The translations under genes and the position numbers were made by a program. 64,000 bases of DNA, from the NCBI GenBank assembly GCA_002753335.1, contig PEAD01000011.1, positions 1-64,000 on the forward strand, written 5' to 3'. How positions within the stretch are numbered: the stretch's first letter is position 1; every line of letters begins with the position of its first letter. This document shows positions 360 to 37,191 of the stretch, piece after piece. The stretch is from Nitrospirae bacterium MYbin3. Lineage in GTDB: Bacteria; Nitrospirota; Thermodesulfovibrionia; Thermodesulfovibrionales; Dissulfurispiraceae. The notes under the pieces were generated by a model. That model was given only the letters and a program-made list of their open reading frames with translations, did not search any database and had not been told where the DNA came from.

Positions 360-2320
360 GTAGAGTAGAGGGCTGGCGCGGTAGTATAGCACCCCGTTTC
401 CAGTCCCCCCTCATCAATTCCGTACGTTCGGTTTTCCCGAATACGGCTTTCCGATTATCTTCTTCCAGAAGTCTTCGCAGACTGAATCCATGGAGGTGTC
501 GTCGGTACTTCATAGACGCCTAAAGTTTCGAAGTAATACTTGTTCGGATAAGCCGAATATCCAAAACTTCGATAGTGGTGTTTCCGACGCAAGTATACCC
601 GAATCCTATAGACCAGATAGCTTCTCAAAGATGACAAGGCTTTTGTACAGTTTCCATATCGAAAGTAACATACCCATCCCCTGGCGACTTCATTGGCTCT
701 CCGGATTACCTCTTCGGTCGGCACTGTACTGTATCGCTCAGATGTCAGTTGTTTGATTTTTGAGCGTACATTCTTCAGTGCCTTTTTCGATGGCTCGGTG
801 AGAGGAAATGGACGTCCGCTATTCATTCCCCTGCGCATTTTTATGCTGAACCCCAAAAAGGCAAAGCTCTCTTGCCATGCATCCACGACTCGAGTCTTCT
901 CCTCATTCAGGGATAGCCCAAGCTCATTGAGAACCGTAGTCATCCCTTTCAGTATCCTCTCGGCATTGCCTTTGCACAGTACTACAGCATCATCGGCATA
1001 GCGCACGAGTCTCGCCCCCAGTCTTTCCTGTACTTTTTTGACCGCCCACAGCGTATCAAGTACGTTCAGATATATGTTGGCAAGCAACGGAGATATTACC
1101 CCGCCCTGCGGTGTTCCCTTGTCGTTCCCCTTGTATTCCGTCTTCCCATCCTCACGCTCTTCAACAATCGGAGCTCTCAGCCACATTTTGATAAGATTCA
1201 ATATCTGCTTATCCACAATGCGTTTGGCTACCAGTTGCATCAGCTTGTCATGAGGTATTGTGTCGAAGTACTTTGAGATGTCGGCATCAATTACATCTGT
1301 TTTGCCTTTATTAAGGTGCTTTGTTACATCGGCCACCGCCTGATGGGCGCTCCGCTTCGGTCTGAATCCGTAAGAGTTGTCCTGAAAGTCAGCTTCAAAT
1401 ATAGGTTCGATTACAATCTTTACGGCCATCTGTACTACCCTGTCCTTGATTACCGGAATCCCCAGCGGCCTTTTACCTCCGTTTGCCTTCGGGATATATA
1501 CCCTTCGGACTGCTTGAGGCTTGTAGCATTTTCGCTTCAGTTCTTCCGCAATCTCTTGAAGATACTTCTGGACTCCTCCGTCTCGTTCCTCTATGCTCTC
1601 AAAGGTCTCTCCGTCTATTCCCGGCGCCCCTTTGTTCGCTTTGACAAGTCCATAGGCATGGCTCAGGATGTCCTGCCTGTATACCTTGTCATACAGAAGA
1701 TAGAAACGATACTCTTTTTCCTGCTTGGCTTTCCGGTATAGTTTCCTCTGAAGTTCCCGAATCTTTTCTGGAGTTTTCAGCACTATGTGCAATCCCCTTT
1801 CCTTTGCTTCTTCGAAAACATGATAAAAGTATTGCCCCTTCCCTCTCCCGAGGTTATGTTGTCCTTTGGGGATTATATCGGTACTATGGGCAAATCCGAC
1901 TCCCTTTCCGACCCCGTGGACTTTCGTTTCCTTATATCCACCGGTTTGTCTTTCCTGTAAGACATCGGCAAGGGTCTCCCGTGCTCATCGTCGTATGGCT
2001 GCCCCTGCGTGTCACCCCTGATACCCCGGAAGTTCATCTATCGGTTACGGTAGTTATGGTCAGGATAGATGCGGCGGTCTTCCCCTTTGTAGAACAGGGT
2101 CGACAACTCCATTTTATGTTTCGAGGCTACATCTGGGTTCGCGCTCGCTGCGACCCGCAGGCTTGCTCAGCTCCCTATAGAAGCCTTTGTCAGAAAACTT
2201 AGCGCTTCAGGTTGCCCCTTGCACCTTCCTCAAGCTACGTGGGTGAGCTACCGAACTCCCACGGTCGGACTTCAACCGACTAGTCATACGTTTTGCACGG
2301 CATACTCTACAAATTCGCAC
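360..2320 (-). mobile_element. Group II intron (retrotransposable), full length
   Basis: The 5' end reads GTGCG from 2320 on the minus strand, the usual group II start. The reverse transcriptase sits in domain IV. Downstream of it, a domain V hairpin covers about 416-450: arms AGCCGTATTCGG and CCGAACGTACGG around a GAAAA-type loop. A domain VI-like stem follows (GGGGGGACTGG pairing with CCAGCCCTC), ending near 360 in CTCTAC. All expected parts are present and the gene is open, so it may be active. The exact 3' boundary is uncertain by a few bases. It lies 55 bases past an attC-like site; some group IIC introns are known to target attC sites, but the subclass here is not established. Confidence 0.75.
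455..1783 (-). CDS. ltrA: Group II intron reverse transcriptase/maturase
   Basis: Intron-encoded protein that promotes splicing of its host intron and reverse-transcribes it during retrohoming. About 442 residues. The N-terminal RT-0 region has [10 protein letters not shown], followed by finger/palm motifs including [32 protein letters not shown] and the catalytic YADD. The C-terminal maturase (GIIM) domain has WVCYFRYGN. The protein ends soon after domain X with no visible HNH endonuclease, so mobility probably relies on another primer source. I prefer the GTG at 1783, ten bases after an AAGGGG Shine-Dalgarno; a TTG three codons upstream is the alternative. No frameshift or stop interrupts it, which supports a functional element. 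Confidence 0.93.
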
Positions 2321-30468: not shown

Positions 30469-31629
30469 TTACGCTGCTGTCTTCTTTTTCTTTTCTGCTG
30501 CGAGTCTGTGAACTTCGACCACGTTGAAGGTGCCATCAATCGCCTGAACAGGGCACTTGGCGGTGCAGATGCCGCAGCCGATACACTTAGACTGATTGAC
30601 TTCGTGCTTCTTTTTCGGCTCCCCGCTGATGGCATCCATCGGACAGACTTTTTTGCAGGACTGGCAGCCGATGCATTTGTCTGTGATAACAGCCTTCGGC
30701 CTTGCAGGGATTAGATCAACTATCGCTTTTGTGGGGCATTTGGATACGCAGAGTCCGCAAACCCTGCATTTATCAAGGTCTATGCGCGAAAGATTTTTAT
30801 CGACTTTAGGTGCGTCGAACGGGCATACCTTTACACAGATGCCGCAGGCAATACAGCCTATCTGGCAGTTCTTCTTTGTATCAACACCTTTGTCTTTTGA
30901 ATGGCACGACACAAGCACCGCCTTGGATCCCGGAAGCACCTCAATAACTTTTTTCGGACAGGCTGCCTCGCACTTGCGGCAGCCTGTGCATTTAGTGATA
31001 TCAACAACAGGAAGCTTATTCGCATTCATCGCTATAGCGCCGAAAGGACATACTTTTTCGCAGGTGCCATATCCCAAGCATCCATAAATGCAGGACTTGT
31101 CGCCGCCTCCGGCAAGCACCGCTGCACGGCAATCCTGCACGCCTTCATAGTTAAACCTTCTTTGCGAAAGATTATGGCCGCCCTGACACATTATTCGTGC
31201 AAACTGTGGTTCTCTTATTTCCGCTTTTTTGCCGGTTATCAACGCAACCGCTTCGGCACCTTTCGCGCCGGCAGGAGTGCAAAGATTTGGCGCCACATCC
31301 GGATTATTCACAACAGCCTCAGCGTACTGCTCGCAGCCGGCGTATCCACAGGCTCCGCAGTGAGCGTGGGCAAGCACATCCTTCACCTGCTCGACCCTCG
31401 GGTCTATTTGAACAGAGAACCTCTTTGCCGCAAACGCAAGCCCTATCCCGAATACCGCGCCTACTCCGGCAAGAAATACGAGAGTCCATTTTACGAGAGG
31501 AACAATATCGATAGTCTCGCGCGCCTCAACACCGCCGCCAACGCCGCCAAGAGGAATCAAGAACTGGGTTAAGTCCATTCCCTGCAACAGGCCGATTATG
31601 TCTAAAATCAGCTTTTGAATCTCGTACAT
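30469..31629 (-). CDS. rnfB: Rnf complex subunit RnfB, extended ferredoxin form
   Basis: Membrane-attached iron-sulfur subunit that takes electrons from reduced ferredoxin and passes them into the Rnf ion pump. It has 386 residues. An unusual 45-residue N-terminal stretch precedes the TM helix (about 45-65). The Fe-S domain follows (CGACGYAGC at 91-99). Six further [4Fe-4S] motifs start near residues 180, 214, 255, 288, 319 and 349. E. coli RsxB is much shorter with fewer clusters; long RnfB forms are known in anaerobes such as Acetobacterium. The protein ends in a lysine-rich tail. TTGGAGG precedes the ATG. Last gene of rnfCDGEAB. Confidence 0.94.
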   Translation of the reverse strand: MYEIQKLILDIIGLLQGMDLTQFLIPLGGVGGGVEARETIDIVPLVKWTLVFLAGVGAVFGIGLAFAAKRFSVQIDPRVEQVKDVLAHAHCGACGYAGCEQYAEAVVNNPDVAPNLCTPAGAKGAEAVALITGKKAEIREPQFARIMCQGGHNLSQRRFNYEGVQDCRAAVLAGGGDKSCIYGCLGYGTCEKVCPFGAIAMNANKLPVVDITKCTGCRKCEAACPKKVIEVLPGSKAVLVSCHSKDKGVDTKKNCQIGCIACGICVKVCPFDAPKVDKNLSRIDLDKCRVCGLCVSKCPTKAIVDLIPARPKAVITDKCIGCQSCKKVCPMDAISGEPKKKHEVNQSKCIGCGICTAKCPVQAIDGTFNVVEVHRLAAEKKKKTAA

Positions 31630-31660
31630 TTAGTTAAACCTCCAAAAACGGAAGAAAGTT

Positions 31661-32254
31661 TTAAAGTGTTATCAGACCCGAAAAACCTGTAAAAGCAAGA
31701 GCTATCAACCCCGAAACGATAAACGCCATCGGCAGTCCTCTGAACGGGGCCGGAATATCCGCAAGCTCCAGTTTTTCGCGGATGCTCGCCATGATTATCA
31801 GTGCCAACGCAAATCCAATGCCGGAGCCGAGTCCAAAGGCAAGGCTCTCTATAAAATTATAATGCTCACCCGCATTTATGAGCGGAACCGCAAGTATAAT
31901 ACAGTTGGTCGAGATCAGCGCAAGGTATATGCCAAGCTTGTAATAAAGGGCTGGAGCAACTTTTCTCATTATAGTGTCCGATGCCTGAACAAAAGCGGCT
32001 ATAACGCCGATAAAAACAATAATCTTCAGAAAGGTTATATCCAGCGGCACCATAACAAAATTGAATATCACCCAACTTAAGGCGGCGCTTATCATCATGA
32101 CCGCGGTAAAGGTGACACTCATGCCGACAGCGGTTTCCATTTTCTTGGAAACACCGAAGAATATGCAGAGTCCAAGGAACCGGGTGAACACGAAGTTGTT
32201 TATCAGCGAGGCTGCGACTATCAGCTCAAAAAGTTTTGTAAAATCCATCGTCAT
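31661..32254 (-). CDS. rnfA: Rnf complex subunit RnfA
   Basis: Integral membrane subunit of the ferredoxin:NAD+ oxidoreductase (Rnf), 197 residues with about six TM helices. Characteristic RnfA lines include LINNFVFTRFLGLCIFFGVSKK and TNCIILAVPLI, whose Cys residues belong to the RnfA/RnfE pair that holds a membrane-embedded iron-sulfur centre. It pairs with RnfE as an inverted-topology dimer. AAGGGGG precedes the ATG by eight bases. It lies 13 bases after rnfE. Confidence 0.96.
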   Translation of the reverse strand: MTMDFTKLFELIVAASLINNFVFTRFLGLCIFFGVSKKMETAVGMSVTFTAVMMISAALSWVIFNFVMVPLDITFLKIIVFIGVIAAFVQASDTIMRKVAPALYYKLGIYLALISTNCIILAVPLINAGEHYNFIESLAFGLGSGIGFALALIIMASIREKLELADIPAPFRGLPMAFIVSGLIALAFTGFSGLITL

Positions 32255-32267
32255 TTAAGTTGCCCCC

Positions 32268-32900
32268 TTAGTGCGATGCTGTAGCGCTCTTTTTTAAATA
32301 CCGGATGTCTATCCAGTTGAAAAGAGCCATCAGGATGCCGACCGCAAAGAATCCGCCTGCAGGCAAGATCATTATAAGAAGCGGTTTTGCGTTTATAATT
32401 GCATAGCCCCAAACAGAGCCTTTGCCGATCAGCTCCCTGAAGAAGCTGATGACCGTAAGCGCAAACAGAAAGCCAAGCCCCATGCCTATGCCGTCCACCA
32501 TCGAAGGCGCTATCTTGTTCTTGCTCGCAAACATCTCGGCGCGGGCAAGGATTGATGCAAAGGCAACTATAAGCTGAATATAAAGCCCCATCTGCTTGTA
32601 GATGTCCGGCACAAAAGCGGCCATTGACATGTCTGCAATAGTGACCCAACCCGAAATTACGAGCATGAATATCGGAAGCCTTACTTTAGGATGTATGAAT
32701 TTTCTCAAAACCGAAATCGTTATATTGACCATAGTCTGAACAAATAAGACCGCAACACCCATAAGAACGCCGTTTTTCAGGTTATTGGTAACCGCAATGG
32801 AAGGGCACAAGCTCAGCGCAAGCTTGAATATCGTATTTTCTTTTATAATACCGTTCTTTATTAAATCGAGGTAATTAACGGTGTCCGCTGTGTTCGCCAT
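32268..32900 (-). CDS. rnfE: Rnf complex subunit RnfE
   Basis: Integral membrane Rnf subunit, 210 residues, about six TM helices, homologous to RnfA. IFKLALSLCPSIAVTNNLKNG contains the conserved Cys, and GLGFLFALTVISFFRELIG the second half. The ATG at 32900 follows AAGGAGG by eight bases; an ATG three codons earlier is less likely. It overlaps the 3' end of rnfG by 26 bases, implying coupled translation. Confidence 0.95.
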   Translation of the reverse strand: MANTADTVNYLDLIKNGIIKENTIFKLALSLCPSIAVTNNLKNGVLMGVAVLFVQTMVNITISVLRKFIHPKVRLPIFMLVISGWVTIADMSMAAFVPDIYKQMGLYIQLIVAFASILARAEMFASKNKIAPSMVDGIGMGLGFLFALTVISFFRELIGKGSVWGYAIINAKPLLIMILPAGGFFAVGILMALFNWIDIRYLKKSATASH

Positions 32901-33471
32901 TGCCGGCACCTCCTTCGGTCATCTGCTTTTTCAAAAACTCCACGCCCTTCTTTACTGCATCATCGCAGACAGCGCGGCTCGAAATCGTTGCACCAGAAAT
33001 AGCCTGAACAAATTCTGTGGTTTCGGTTTTAAGAACTTTTAAATGTTCAGCATCTTTGCCTTTGAACTGGTCTTTGAAGCTGTCGGCCTCTATCTCATCG
33101 CCGAGGCCGGGTGTTTCGGCATGGCTCAAAACATTTATCTTTTTGACCTTGAAATCTTTGTCAACCGCAATAAGCGTATTTATGTAGCTAGAATATCCTT
33201 TTCCGAAGGACTGAATTACATACCCGATCACCTCATCGTCTTTTTTCGCAACAAAATATTCTGCATGTTTTTCGTGTATGGTCCAATCGCCCGCCTTTTC
33301 GATCTTGTCCGCCTCGGGCACAAGTTCTTTTAATGCCGCTTCTTTTGCGATCTTTGCGTTTTGAAACATTATCGGAGAAGTCTTTGCATAAACCCCGGCA
33401 AGTATAAGCCCGCCCGCAAGGTAAACCAAAACGAGATTCAAGGTTATTTTTAAAATGTCTTTGCCGGTCAT
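32875..33471 (-). CDS. rnfG: Rnf complex subunit RnfG
   Basis: FMN-binding Rnf subunit, 198 residues, anchored by one N-terminal TM helix (ITLNLVLVYLAGGLILAGVYA) with the bulk outside the cytoplasm. The flavinylation motif SGATISSRAV carries the threonine that accepts FMN through a phosphoester. HAETPGLGDEI is the family signature. A short His-rich C-terminal tail (GEHSGHR) is unusual but minor. The start overlaps the rnfD stop by four bases. Flavinylation needs ApbE, which is not in this window. Confidence 0.95.
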   Translation of the reverse strand: MTGKDILKITLNLVLVYLAGGLILAGVYAKTSPIMFQNAKIAKEAALKELVPEADKIEKAGDWTIHEKHAEYFVAKKDDEVIGYVIQSFGKGYSSYINTLIAVDKDFKVKKINVLSHAETPGLGDEIEADSFKDQFKGKDAEHLKVLKTETTEFVQAISGATISSRAVCDDAVKKGVEFLKKQMTEGGAGNGEHSGHR

Positions 33472-34478
33472 TTCTTAACCTCTTTCTTGGCGCCGAAAAC
33501 CTTAGTTTTAAAACCCCTGTCGATCAGCGGCGAGAAGCAGTTCATTATAAGAATCGCGAACATCACGCCTTCAGGATATCCGCCTTTCAGTCTTATAAGC
33601 ATCGTCAGAAAACCGCAGCCCGCACCAAAAAGGATTTGTCCGGCTTTAACCGACGGACAGGTGACATAATCTGTCGCCATAAAGAATGCTCCCAAAAGCA
33701 TACCGCCGCTCAGAAGATGCACTATCGGGTCGCCCGCAAAAAAAGCGCCTTTTGCTCCAAAGGCCCAAGCCATAAGACCGGCTGTTCCCAAAAACGAAAC
33801 CGGTATGTGCCATGTAATATATCCGCGGTAAAAAAGAAATGCTGCGCCCAAAAGCAAAGCTATCGCGGATGTTTCACCGATAGAGCCTGCCCTGTGGCCC
33901 GAAAGCAGCTGTAGATATAAATTCGAGTTGTCGCCGAACATTTCTAAAAGCTTTGCAACCCCTTCTTCCTTCAGAATTCCGAGCGGGGTAGCTGTGGTCT
34001 TTGCATCGAGTTTTATGAATGCGGCTGTAGGCTCCGCCCAGATGGTCATTAGCTTAGGAAATGATATTAAAAGAAACGCCCTGCCTATCAGTGCGGGGTT
34101 GAAAACATTGTATCCTAGTCCGCCAAAAAGCTGTTTTGTAATTACGACCGCAACGACAGAGCCGACTATCGGTATATAAAAAGGAACAGTGGGCGGCAGG
34201 TTTAATCCCAAAAGCAGTCCGGTCAAAAACGCGCTGCCGTCATTAACTGTAATTTTTCTATCGGTCCCTTTTTGATATAAAAATTCTGAAAGAATCGAGG
34301 CGATTATACAGAGCGCAACATTTAAAACAGCCTTAGGACCGAAAAAGTATGCGCCCATAACCGTTGCAGGCAAAAGAGAAGCTGATACGCTCCACATAAT
34401 CCGGCTTGTGGTCTCTTCACTCCGCACATGCGGGCTTACAGAAAGAGTCAACTGGTGGTCTTTTTTCAATTTCTCCAT
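33468..34478 (-). CDS. rnfD: Rnf complex subunit RnfD
   Basis: Integral membrane, flavinylated Rnf subunit related to NqrB, 336 residues with about nine TM helices. AGSIGETSAIALLLG contains the Thr that carries covalent FMN. DGSAFLTGLLLGLNLPP and FNPALIGRAFLL are family motifs. The ATG at 34478 lies ten bases after the rnfC stop behind CGGAG. An ATG twelve codons earlier would overlap rnfC and adds residues not usual for the family. Confidence 0.95.
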   Translation of the reverse strand: MEKLKKDHQLTLSVSPHVRSEETTSRIMWSVSASLLPATVMGAYFFGPKAVLNVALCIIASILSEFLYQKGTDRKITVNDGSAFLTGLLLGLNLPPTVPFYIPIVGSVVAVVITKQLFGGLGYNVFNPALIGRAFLLISFPKLMTIWAEPTAAFIKLDAKTTATPLGILKEEGVAKLLEMFGDNSNLYLQLLSGHRAGSIGETSAIALLLGAAFLFYRGYITWHIPVSFLGTAGLMAWAFGAKGAFFAGDPIVHLLSGGMLLGAFFMATDYVTCPSVKAGQILFGAGCGFLTMLIRLKGGYPEGVMFAILIMNCFSPLIDRGFKTKVFGAKKEVKK

Positions 34479-34488
34479 CAATGCTCCG

Positions 34489-35796
34489 TTAGGGTTTAAC
34501 CATTGTTTTTGCAAGTCTCACAAACTGTACTATCGGCCTTTTGGATGGACAGACAAAGGTGCATGAGCCGCACTCAAAGCAGTCAAAAAGATTATATGCC
34601 TTTGCATCTTCATAAAAGCCTTTTTCTGAATAAACGCTCAGCATCGAAGGTATCAGGCCCATAGGGCATGCGTCAATACATCTGCCGCAACGAATGCAGG
34701 GGCCGAACTCATCGAGGTGAAAGGCCTCTGATTCAGGAAGCACCAGCACACCCGAAGTTCCTTTGGTAACCGGCGTTTCTGTCGAATAAACAGCAAAGCC
34801 CATCATCGGGCCGCCCGATATCACCTTTGCTGCTTCGGAGCTATATCCGCCGCAATCTTCTATGAGTTCAGAAACGAGAGTTCCGATTTTTACAAGAAGG
34901 TTCCTTGGCTCTTTAATGCCCTCTCCTGTAACCGTAACAACCCGCTCAACAAGCGGCTTTCCATACCTTGCGGCTTCATATACCGCAATTGCGGTGCCTA
35001 TATTCTGCACCACAACGCCCACATCCATCGGAAGAGCCCTCGGAGGAACCTCACGGTCAGCGCAGGCCTTTATCAGCATTTTTTCTGCTCCTTGAGGATA
35101 TTTGACCTCAAGTGCGCAGACCTGAATATTCTGTTCTCCTGAAACAGCATTTTTCATTATCTCTATAGCGTCAGGCTTGTTGTTCTCTATGCCGATAAAT
35201 CCTTTATTAACACCAATAATCTTCATCAAAACCTTCAGGCCTTCGATTATATCCTTAGGCCTTTCTATCATTAACCGGTAATCTGCGGTTAGATACGGCT
35301 CACACTCCGCACCGTTTATTATGACCACATCAATAGGCTTTTCCTTTGGCGGCGAGAGTTTGACATGCGCAGGAAATGCTGCCCCCCCCATGCCTACAAT
35401 TCCGGCATCTTTAACCTTTGTTTTGAGTTCGTCGGGAGAGAGGTTCATATAATCCGAGTTGTCTTTCAATGCAGTCCATTCGTCTGTTCCGGAGTTTTCG
35501 ATAACCACAGAGGGTACTAAGCGGCCTGTTGCAACAGGGAAATCGGCAATAGCGACAACCTTGCCCGAAACAGAAGAATGCACAGGCGACGAAACAAAGC
35601 CTTCGGGCGTGCCCACCACCTCGCCCCTTTTCACTTCCTGCCCTATGCTAACCGCAAGCTTGCAGGGCGCACCGATATGCTGGGATAAAGGAATGACAAC
35701 CCTTTTAGGAGAACGGGCAGGGGTTATCTCTTTGCCTTTTGAAAGCTCTTTTTTATCAGGAGGATGTATTCCCCCCTTAAATGTTGCCAAAGCCAT
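34489..35796 (-). CDS. rnfC: Rnf complex subunit RnfC
   Basis: Peripheral NADH-binding Rnf subunit, 435 residues, homologous to the 51-kDa subunit of complex I. N-terminal FKGGIHPPDKK is typical. VGMGGAAFPAHVK forms the nucleotide/FMN loop and INGAECEPYLTADYRLM is the signature. Two [4Fe-4S] motifs are at the C-terminus (CIRCGRCIDACP and CFECGSCTFVCP). First gene of the operon, behind CCGGAGGAG. It reduces NAD+ with electrons from RnfB, coupled to Na+ or H+ export. Confidence 0.96.
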   Translation of the reverse strand: MALATFKGGIHPPDKKELSKGKEITPARSPKRVVIPLSQHIGAPCKLAVSIGQEVKRGEVVGTPEGFVSSPVHSSVSGKVVAIADFPVATGRLVPSVVIENSGTDEWTALKDNSDYMNLSPDELKTKVKDAGIVGMGGAAFPAHVKLSPPKEKPIDVVIINGAECEPYLTADYRLMIERPKDIIEGLKVLMKIIGVNKGFIGIENNKPDAIEIMKNAVSGEQNIQVCALEVKYPQGAEKMLIKACADREVPPRALPMDVGVVVQNIGTAIAVYEAARYGKPLVERVVTVTGEGIKEPRNLLVKIGTLVSELIEDCGGYSSEAAKVISGGPMMGFAVYSTETPVTKGTSGVLVLPESEAFHLDEFGPCIRCGRCIDACPMGLIPSMLSVYSEKGFYEDAKAYNLFDCFECGSCTFVCPSKRPIVQFVRLAKTMVKP

Positions 35797-35917: not shown

Positions 35918-36433
35918 TCAAAGCTTGGCCAATGCTTTTTTTATCAGTTTATCTTTTTTAGAGGGTTGGTAAGCGCTGCCTTTATAATCGGGTAGGCATT
36001 CATCATCTTCGTCTTTAAAATATCGGGGGGAATTTTCTGCAGTCTTATCAGACAAATCTTTTTTCACTATACCCAAAACTCTTTCATAAAATTTTTCTGA
36101 AGATACAGGAATCGAATTAACATGCCATGCATGATTTGCTATATCCCGGTCCGAACTGACCACAATCCACTCTTTTCTCTGCGCCGATACAATGCGCTTT
36201 ATCACATCGTCTGCGCGCTCGCCGAGCTTTGAATATATTATTTTTACGCCGCCTCTTGCCGAGACATTTTCTGCCGCAGCCCCGCTTTTGTGGCCGTCAA
36301 AAACTACGGTTATATCATGGCTTCTTTTCAGTTTGTATTCTATAAGAATTTCTATAAGACCGTGCCGTGCCTTTTCCATGTCTCTGTGAAAAATGCCGAT
36401 GACATTGTAGCCGTCTATAATTATAGGCGCGAT
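35918..36433 (-). CDS. YacP-like NYN-domain ribonuclease, apparent ATC start
   Basis: NYN/PIN-fold nuclease of the YacP (Rae1) family, about 172 residues; relatives cut RNA, in Bacillus on the ribosome. Metal-binding acidic residues sit in APIIIDGYNVIG (residues 2-13), TVVFDGHKSG, GERADDVIKRI and VVSSDRDIA. The first Asp motif lies upstream of the first in-frame ATG (36379), and the frame is closed by a stop before any ATG, GTG or TTG. The sequence aligns with the usual Met at an ATC codon (36433) placed seven bases after a perfect AGGAGG. I infer initiation at ATC, or an ATG misread as ATC. It is coupled to the zinc-ribbon gene just upstream. Confidence 0.78.
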   Translation of the reverse strand: MAPIIIDGYNVIGIFHRDMEKARHGLIEILIEYKLKRSHDITVVFDGHKSGAAAENVSARGGVKIIYSKLGERADDVIKRIVSAQRKEWIVVSSDRDIANHAWHVNSIPVSSEKFYERVLGIVKKDLSDKTAENSPRYFKDEDDECLPDYKGSAYQPSKKDKLIKKALAKL

Positions 36434-36455
36434 GTTAGAGCCTCCTGCGACATTT

Positions 36456-36626
36456 TCATGCCCTATTGCATGGCCTTGCCGCTATACGGTTCCATGTAAT
36501 TTCGTCTATCTCCTCAAGGCAATCAGAAATCCTGAATTCTCTGCCGCATGCCACGCACCGGAAGAAAACGGTCTTTCAGGTTGACGCTAAATCGAGTCTT
36601 GCCCCGCAAATCCTGCATTTCATCAT
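36456..36626 (-). CDS. Small zinc-ribbon protein with in-frame UGA
   Basis: A 56-codon frame that reads as one protein if codon 17 (TGA at 36578-36576) is translated. Before it come MMKCRICGARLDLAST; after it, in the same frame, come KTVFFRCVACGREF, then ISDCLEEIDEITWNRIAARP. The two CxxC pairs flanking the UGA make a typical treble-clef/zinc-ribbon, so both halves belong together. The UGA could be a sequencing error, a nonsense mutation, readthrough, or selenocysteine. A small stem-loop (CCGGTGC/GCAT-CGG, loop GTG) starts 14 bases after the UGA. The stop lies ten bases before the Shine-Dalgarno of the NYN nuclease gene, so the two are one operon. Confidence 0.6.
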
Positions 36627-36672: not shown

Positions 36673-37191
36673 GTGGAGCTGCTGAATCTGTTGAACAAGA
36701 ACCTCTCATTCAAAAATAAGGCGAATTGGGATAAAACGCTTTTGCTTCTTGAAAATGCGTTTAAAGCCCCCGAAATGCTCAGGCTTAAAGGAGTTGCGCT
36801 ATCATTGGTTGAAGCTGTACGTCTAATGGACGGCTTTATACAGGAAAACAGCGCGCAAGTCTGCCCCGACTGCGTCAAGGTTTGCTGCAAAAACACCCAC
36901 TCTTATTACGACCACGAAGACCTTATTTTTATCTATTCTTTGGGCAGAAAAGCACCTGAGTATGCACCCGAAATCGATGATGAAGATGCCTGTCAGTTCA
37001 TTTCCGAAAAAGGATGCACAATCGAAAGAGCGTTCAGGCCGTTCAGGTGCAACTGGTATTTTTGTGATCCTCTAATCAAGCATATGGAAGAGGGGCCTCA
37101 AAAAGCTTACCGAAAATTTATCGCGATATTTCACGATGCGATAGACTTAAGGCGCAGGCTTGTCGAGGATTTTTTTATGCTTCAAAAATAG
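36673..37191 (+). CDS. YkgJ-family cysteine cluster protein
   Basis: A 172-residue protein with the metal-chelating cysteine pattern of the YkgJ (CxxCxxxCC) family: CPDCVKVCC, then DACQFISEKGCTIERAFRPFRCNWYFC. Members are thought to bind zinc or iron-sulfur; cellular role unknown. The N-terminal 60 residues are helical. It starts with GTG and has no Shine-Dalgarno. A TATACC hexamer ends eight bases upstream, so it too may be leaderless. It is divergent from the zinc-ribbon/NYN nuclease pair. Confidence 0.78.
   Translation: MELLNLLNKNLSFKNKANWDKTLLLLENAFKAPEMLRLKGVALSLVEAVRLMDGFIQENSAQVCPDCVKVCCKNTHSYYDHEDLIFIYSLGRKAPEYAPEIDDEDACQFISEKGCTIERAFRPFRCNWYFCDPLIKHMEEGPQKAYRKFIAIFHDAIDLRRRLVEDFFMLQK

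Follow-up and report, generated by a model that had tools for sequence, protein, structure and literature searches.

Two proteins, OS_HP3 and hypothetical protein DW, are both filed under the NCBIfam family NF041197 (CxxC_Se_CxxC, 'dual CXXC motif small (seleno)protein') in a 2026 review (PMC13188914), and DW is reported as a new selenoprotein in Desulfosarcina, with Cys homologues (PMC12013277). Among genes with unusual start codons, infC and pcnB of E. coli begin with AUU (PMC9410913). The window analyzed here is a stretch of 64,000 nucleotides from Nitrospirae bacterium MYbin3 (contig PEAD01000011.1, positions 1 to 64,000).

The window encodes a small protein that scores 41.2 bits against NF041197 with X at the selenocysteine (Sec) position, close to the cut-off of 40, and 49.2 bits with Cys at that position. 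OS_HP3, DW and the window protein are one family, already predicted and named. The initial annotation of this DNA had allowed, among other possibilities, for a 'new' short selenoprotein; the novelty is not supported.

The gene and its reading frame

The gene (36626..36456, minus strand) has 56 codons, with a TGA at codon 17. It translates in a single frame to MMKCRICGARLDLAST, the TGA, KTVFFRCVACGREFRISDCLEEIDEITWNRIAARPCNRA and a terminal stop codon (TGA, 36458..36456). The start is the ATG at 36626, or at 36623 by alignment. The in-frame TGA (36578..36576) lies between CRIC and CVAC, which are two predicted zinc knuckles of the CxxC type. In the numbering of the alignment these are C3 to C6 (36606..36617, minus) and C23 to C26 (36546..36557, minus), and the second is coded within the hairpin described below. 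The initial annotation, which named no strand, had likewise described two halves in one frame, each with a CxxC, and a UGA at codon 17 between the pairs; the translation confirms both.

Conservation and exchange with cysteine

The gene is found in 45 of 60 related genomes, with exactly one TGA each among the matches listed, and a consensus-sequence search of genome contigs yielded 25 loci. The named relatives are Nitrospirota, several of them labeled Thermodesulfovibrionales. The NF041197 model places this predicted selenoprotein family in 151 of the 379 surveyed genomes of the phylum Nitrospirota; the phylum matches listed have one TGA each, except for six full-length sequences and one fragment without a stop.

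When the loci are read with the profile, 62 distinct sequences have the TGA in the same column, between the CxxC pairs. The residue that homologues carry at this column had been proposed as a check on the annotation. All seven stop-free homologues that were read have Cys, and none has Trp, Gly or Arg. Conservation of the protein past the TGA reaches the motif RPCNRA, in an alignment that spans dozens of genera. The cysteine of this motif, the last conserved one, is replaced by Ser or Ala in several TGA forms. As a side observation, another genome has a diverged second copy of the family that also bears a TGA (G021:C157:40050-40208).

Selenocysteine machinery

The genome of the window contains selA (617.5 bits), selB (368.8 bits) and tRNA-Sec (71.3 bits; gathering score 47), the three components for which the initial annotation had suggested a search. 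It had also named two outcomes as arguing against a selenoprotein, namely a genome without selenocysteine genes and homologues that are all free of stops; the genome holds these genes, and TGA-bearing homologues are widespread.

The distribution of selB was surveyed in 41 genomes, comprising 19 with TGA forms, six with Cys forms and 16 with no match. All 19 TGA-form genomes have selB. It is absent from just three of the 41 genomes, and all three are among the six with Cys forms. The chance of this is 0.002 if loss of selB is independent of form, in a calculation that ignores shared ancestry. The clean Sec/Cys exchange, together with loss of the Sec machinery, constitutes a natural control.

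The hairpin downstream of the TGA

A putative bacterial SECIS hairpin follows the TGA (36536..36569, minus). In the folded window sequence its apical stem begins 14 bases past the TGA and carries a GTG loop (36554..36552), just as the initial annotation had described, and the structure continues into a lower stem of 7 bp, with a minimum free energy of -12.5 kcal/mol. The loop begins with G, as expected of SECIS-type hairpins, which have a G early in the apical loop. No Rfam SECIS family matches in the window at gathering thresholds.

Because the hairpin overlaps conserved codons, part of its conservation reflects constraint on the protein, and it was tested against that constraint. The null consists of resampled synonymous codons, with codon usage drawn from outside the hairpin; an earlier null that took its codon usage from within the hairpin region (mean z -0.90) was superseded by it. 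For the window hairpin, 4.5% of synonymous-codon shuffles are equally stable. Stability is above the null mean in all 62 TGA forms (mean z -1.44), and the difference is significant in the 34 TGA forms that are non-redundant at <75% identity (p = 6 × 10-11). The Cys forms, of which there are only seven, have a mean z of -0.49, and the TGA forms are lower (p = 0.002). Codon choice at C23 and C26 is also biased. In the TGA forms, TGC accounts for 119 of the 124 Cys codons in the hairpin, versus 75 of 124 upstream in the same genes (p = 3 × 10-12), and in the Cys forms the stem Cys codons are TGC in 7 of 14.

Pair counts reveal that the pairs vary little, with almost no compensatory change; therefore, there is little covariation evidence for the hairpin. 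RNAalifold gives no clean separation of the Sec from the Cys forms, so the SECIS argument rests on the codon-based tests.

The NYN_YacP neighbor and its start codon

A gene for an NYN_YacP ribonuclease (Pfam NYN_YacP, E = 2.9 × 10-25) lies directly downstream (35918..36433, minus), which agrees with the initial annotation in that the gene abuts a nuclease gene. Its likely first codon is 22 bases after the stop codon of the zinc-ribbon gene. ATG, GTG and TTG are all absent within reach of the start, and the likely start is an ATC (36433..36431, minus), 7 bases past AGGAGG (36446..36441).

In the 50 NYN loci listed, the codon at the aligned position is most often ATT and sometimes ATC, ATA or GTT, and is usually 4–9 bases past a Shine-Dalgarno-like stretch. 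About two dozen of the loci offer no canonical start anywhere from the in-frame stop upstream to the conserved core; other loci have ATG, GTG or TTG. As a control, a pattern search in the same genomes found AUA or AUC after GGAGG in 14 of 26 infC loci, and infC of the window's own genome starts with AUA. From these sequence patterns, initiation of the NYN gene at AUU or AUC looks widespread in the order, with AUU, AUC, AUA or GUU as the apparent start in most relatives, and this may be a further start that is sensitive to IF3, like those of infC and pcnB. This unusual start may be of more interest than the selenoprotein itself.

In most genomes of the window's own family that hold both genes, the NYN gene is tightly behind the selenoprotein gene on the same strand; in the rest of the order they usually lie at separate places. 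No universal partner gene was found in the neighborhoods: linkage to the NYN gene is a feature of the own family and is rare outside it. In some relatives the selenoprotein gene is followed downstream by a CxxCxxCC-like gene, which in several cases precedes the NYN gene, and in other families the neighbors are, by reading, argG-, rplM/rpsI- or purH-like.

Other features of the window may be recorded here. For the divergent Cys-rich ORF of 172 residues on the plus strand (36673..37191), Pfam gives no match at E ≤ 0.01; this ORF differs from the CxxCxxCC-like gene of the relatives. By eye, the ORFs downstream of the NYN gene (30469..35796, minus) look like a putative rnf operon (CDGEAB), and a Group II intron domain matches at 2143..2282 (minus; 84.5 bits).

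Interpretation of the in-frame UGA

Decoding of the UGA by an ordinary near-cognate tRNA (e.g., as Trp) is highly improbable, as is reassignment of the code. Nothing specific points in this direction apart from the reading frame, which is open before and after the UGA, whereas the sense-codon homologues all carry Cys rather than Trp, Gly or Arg, and genomes without selB carry Cys forms only. In a lone genome a stop codon could be an error, and truncation at the UGA, a pseudogene or a faulty assembly would then have to be considered. The TGA, however, recurs in dozens of independent genomes, and the sequencing error that the initial annotation had allowed for is thereby excluded; with the TGA itself conserved and the protein conserved beyond it to RPCNRA in dozens of genera, truncation, decay or misassembly can be given practically no weight.

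The relationship to the NYN gene raises another alternative, in which the gene is a selenium-sensing leader whose UGA readthrough controls NYN by translational coupling, the zinc-ribbon product being secondary. Such a role is very unlikely: the NYN start codon is weak, and several genomes of the own family have the NYN gene in the same orientation 18–29 bases further on, as a leader would have it, but in most other families of the order the genes are unlinked and the selenoprotein is kept, and the protein past the UGA is conserved. Another proposal, also unlikely, is that the selenoprotein of the own family and its YacP-type NYN ribonuclease are tied together at translation as a single unit, in which the selenol in the zinc-ribbon hairpin turn would act on the ribonuclease, or report the redox or selenium state to it, while synthesis of the ribonuclease would be limited by an AUU/AUC start of the infC kind.

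The reading preferred here is that the gene encodes Sec at the UGA and belongs to NF041197, which is very probable. The selenoprotein option of the initial annotation is upheld by the Sec/Cys exchange, the presence of selA, selB and tRNA-Sec, the constrained hairpin and the phylum-wide conservation. On the sequence evidence, Sec as the intended residue at the UGA is strongly supported, and the relatives in more than 100 Nitrospirota genomes apparently also read UGA as Sec. SelB with Sec-tRNA would decode the UGA, aided by the hairpin directly downstream, and the product would be a selenoprotein of 55–56 residues; if Sec were not inserted, translation would yield no more than a 16-residue peptide.

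Predicted structure and role of the selenol

An AlphaFold2 model of the window protein, computed with 20 relatives and with Sec entered as Cys, has a mean pLDDT of 87 and a pTM of 0.65, with strands at 9–14, 19–23 and 29–31 and two helices. Sec 16 sits in the turn that joins the first strand to the second. The CxxC pairs are conserved in the alignment and the modeled secondary structure is ribbon-like; the four cysteines are predicted to bind zinc as a zinc ribbon.

Located in the turn, away from both knuckles, Sec would be an accessible selenol. It is plausible, though somewhat less likely than not, that this reactive selenol on a zinc-ribbon scaffold has a redox-active or soft-metal-binding role. 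The C-terminal Cys of RPCNRA was considered as a universal resolving partner and rejected: with Ser or Ala at its position in several TGA forms, that Cys cannot be a required partner. The resolving thiol would then have to be supplied by one of the zinc cysteines, by a small thiol or by a partner protein. With a size of 55 residues, a direct test of the role of Sec in a zinc ribbon is feasible.

Comparison with known systems

A PDB sequence search returned generic zinc fingers and ribbons only. A Foldseek search with the window model gave no match at E ≤ 0.001, and the weaker matches are zinc ribbons. The top match, ZifS (TTHA0897, PDB 8yoz), a small zinc-finger protein of Thermus, has a probability of 0.95, but with E = 0.2, 14% identity and an rmsd of 5 Å it does not evidence homology.

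The C-terminal zinc ribbon of TFIIS (PF01096) and RPB9-type ribbons show a weak likeness in profile and fold, with a hairpin between two knuckles. The TFIIS ribbon scores below the Pfam cut-off for the window protein (17.4 versus 21). These ribbons are without Sec, whereas the window protein is bacterial and stand-alone. In TFIIS, functional residues are at the tip of the zinc-ribbon hairpin, which provides a lead, rather than a test, for the role of Sec.

The closest likeness is to NF041197 itself, whose members share with the window protein the size, the two CxxC pairs, the Sec between them and the C-terminal motif. The organism named in the published accounts consulted is Desulfosarcina, whereas the lineage of the window is Nitrospirota (Thermodesulfovibrionales). 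The selenoprotein finding is sound and mostly ordinary, and the Nitrospirota member is at most an extension of the range of NF041197.
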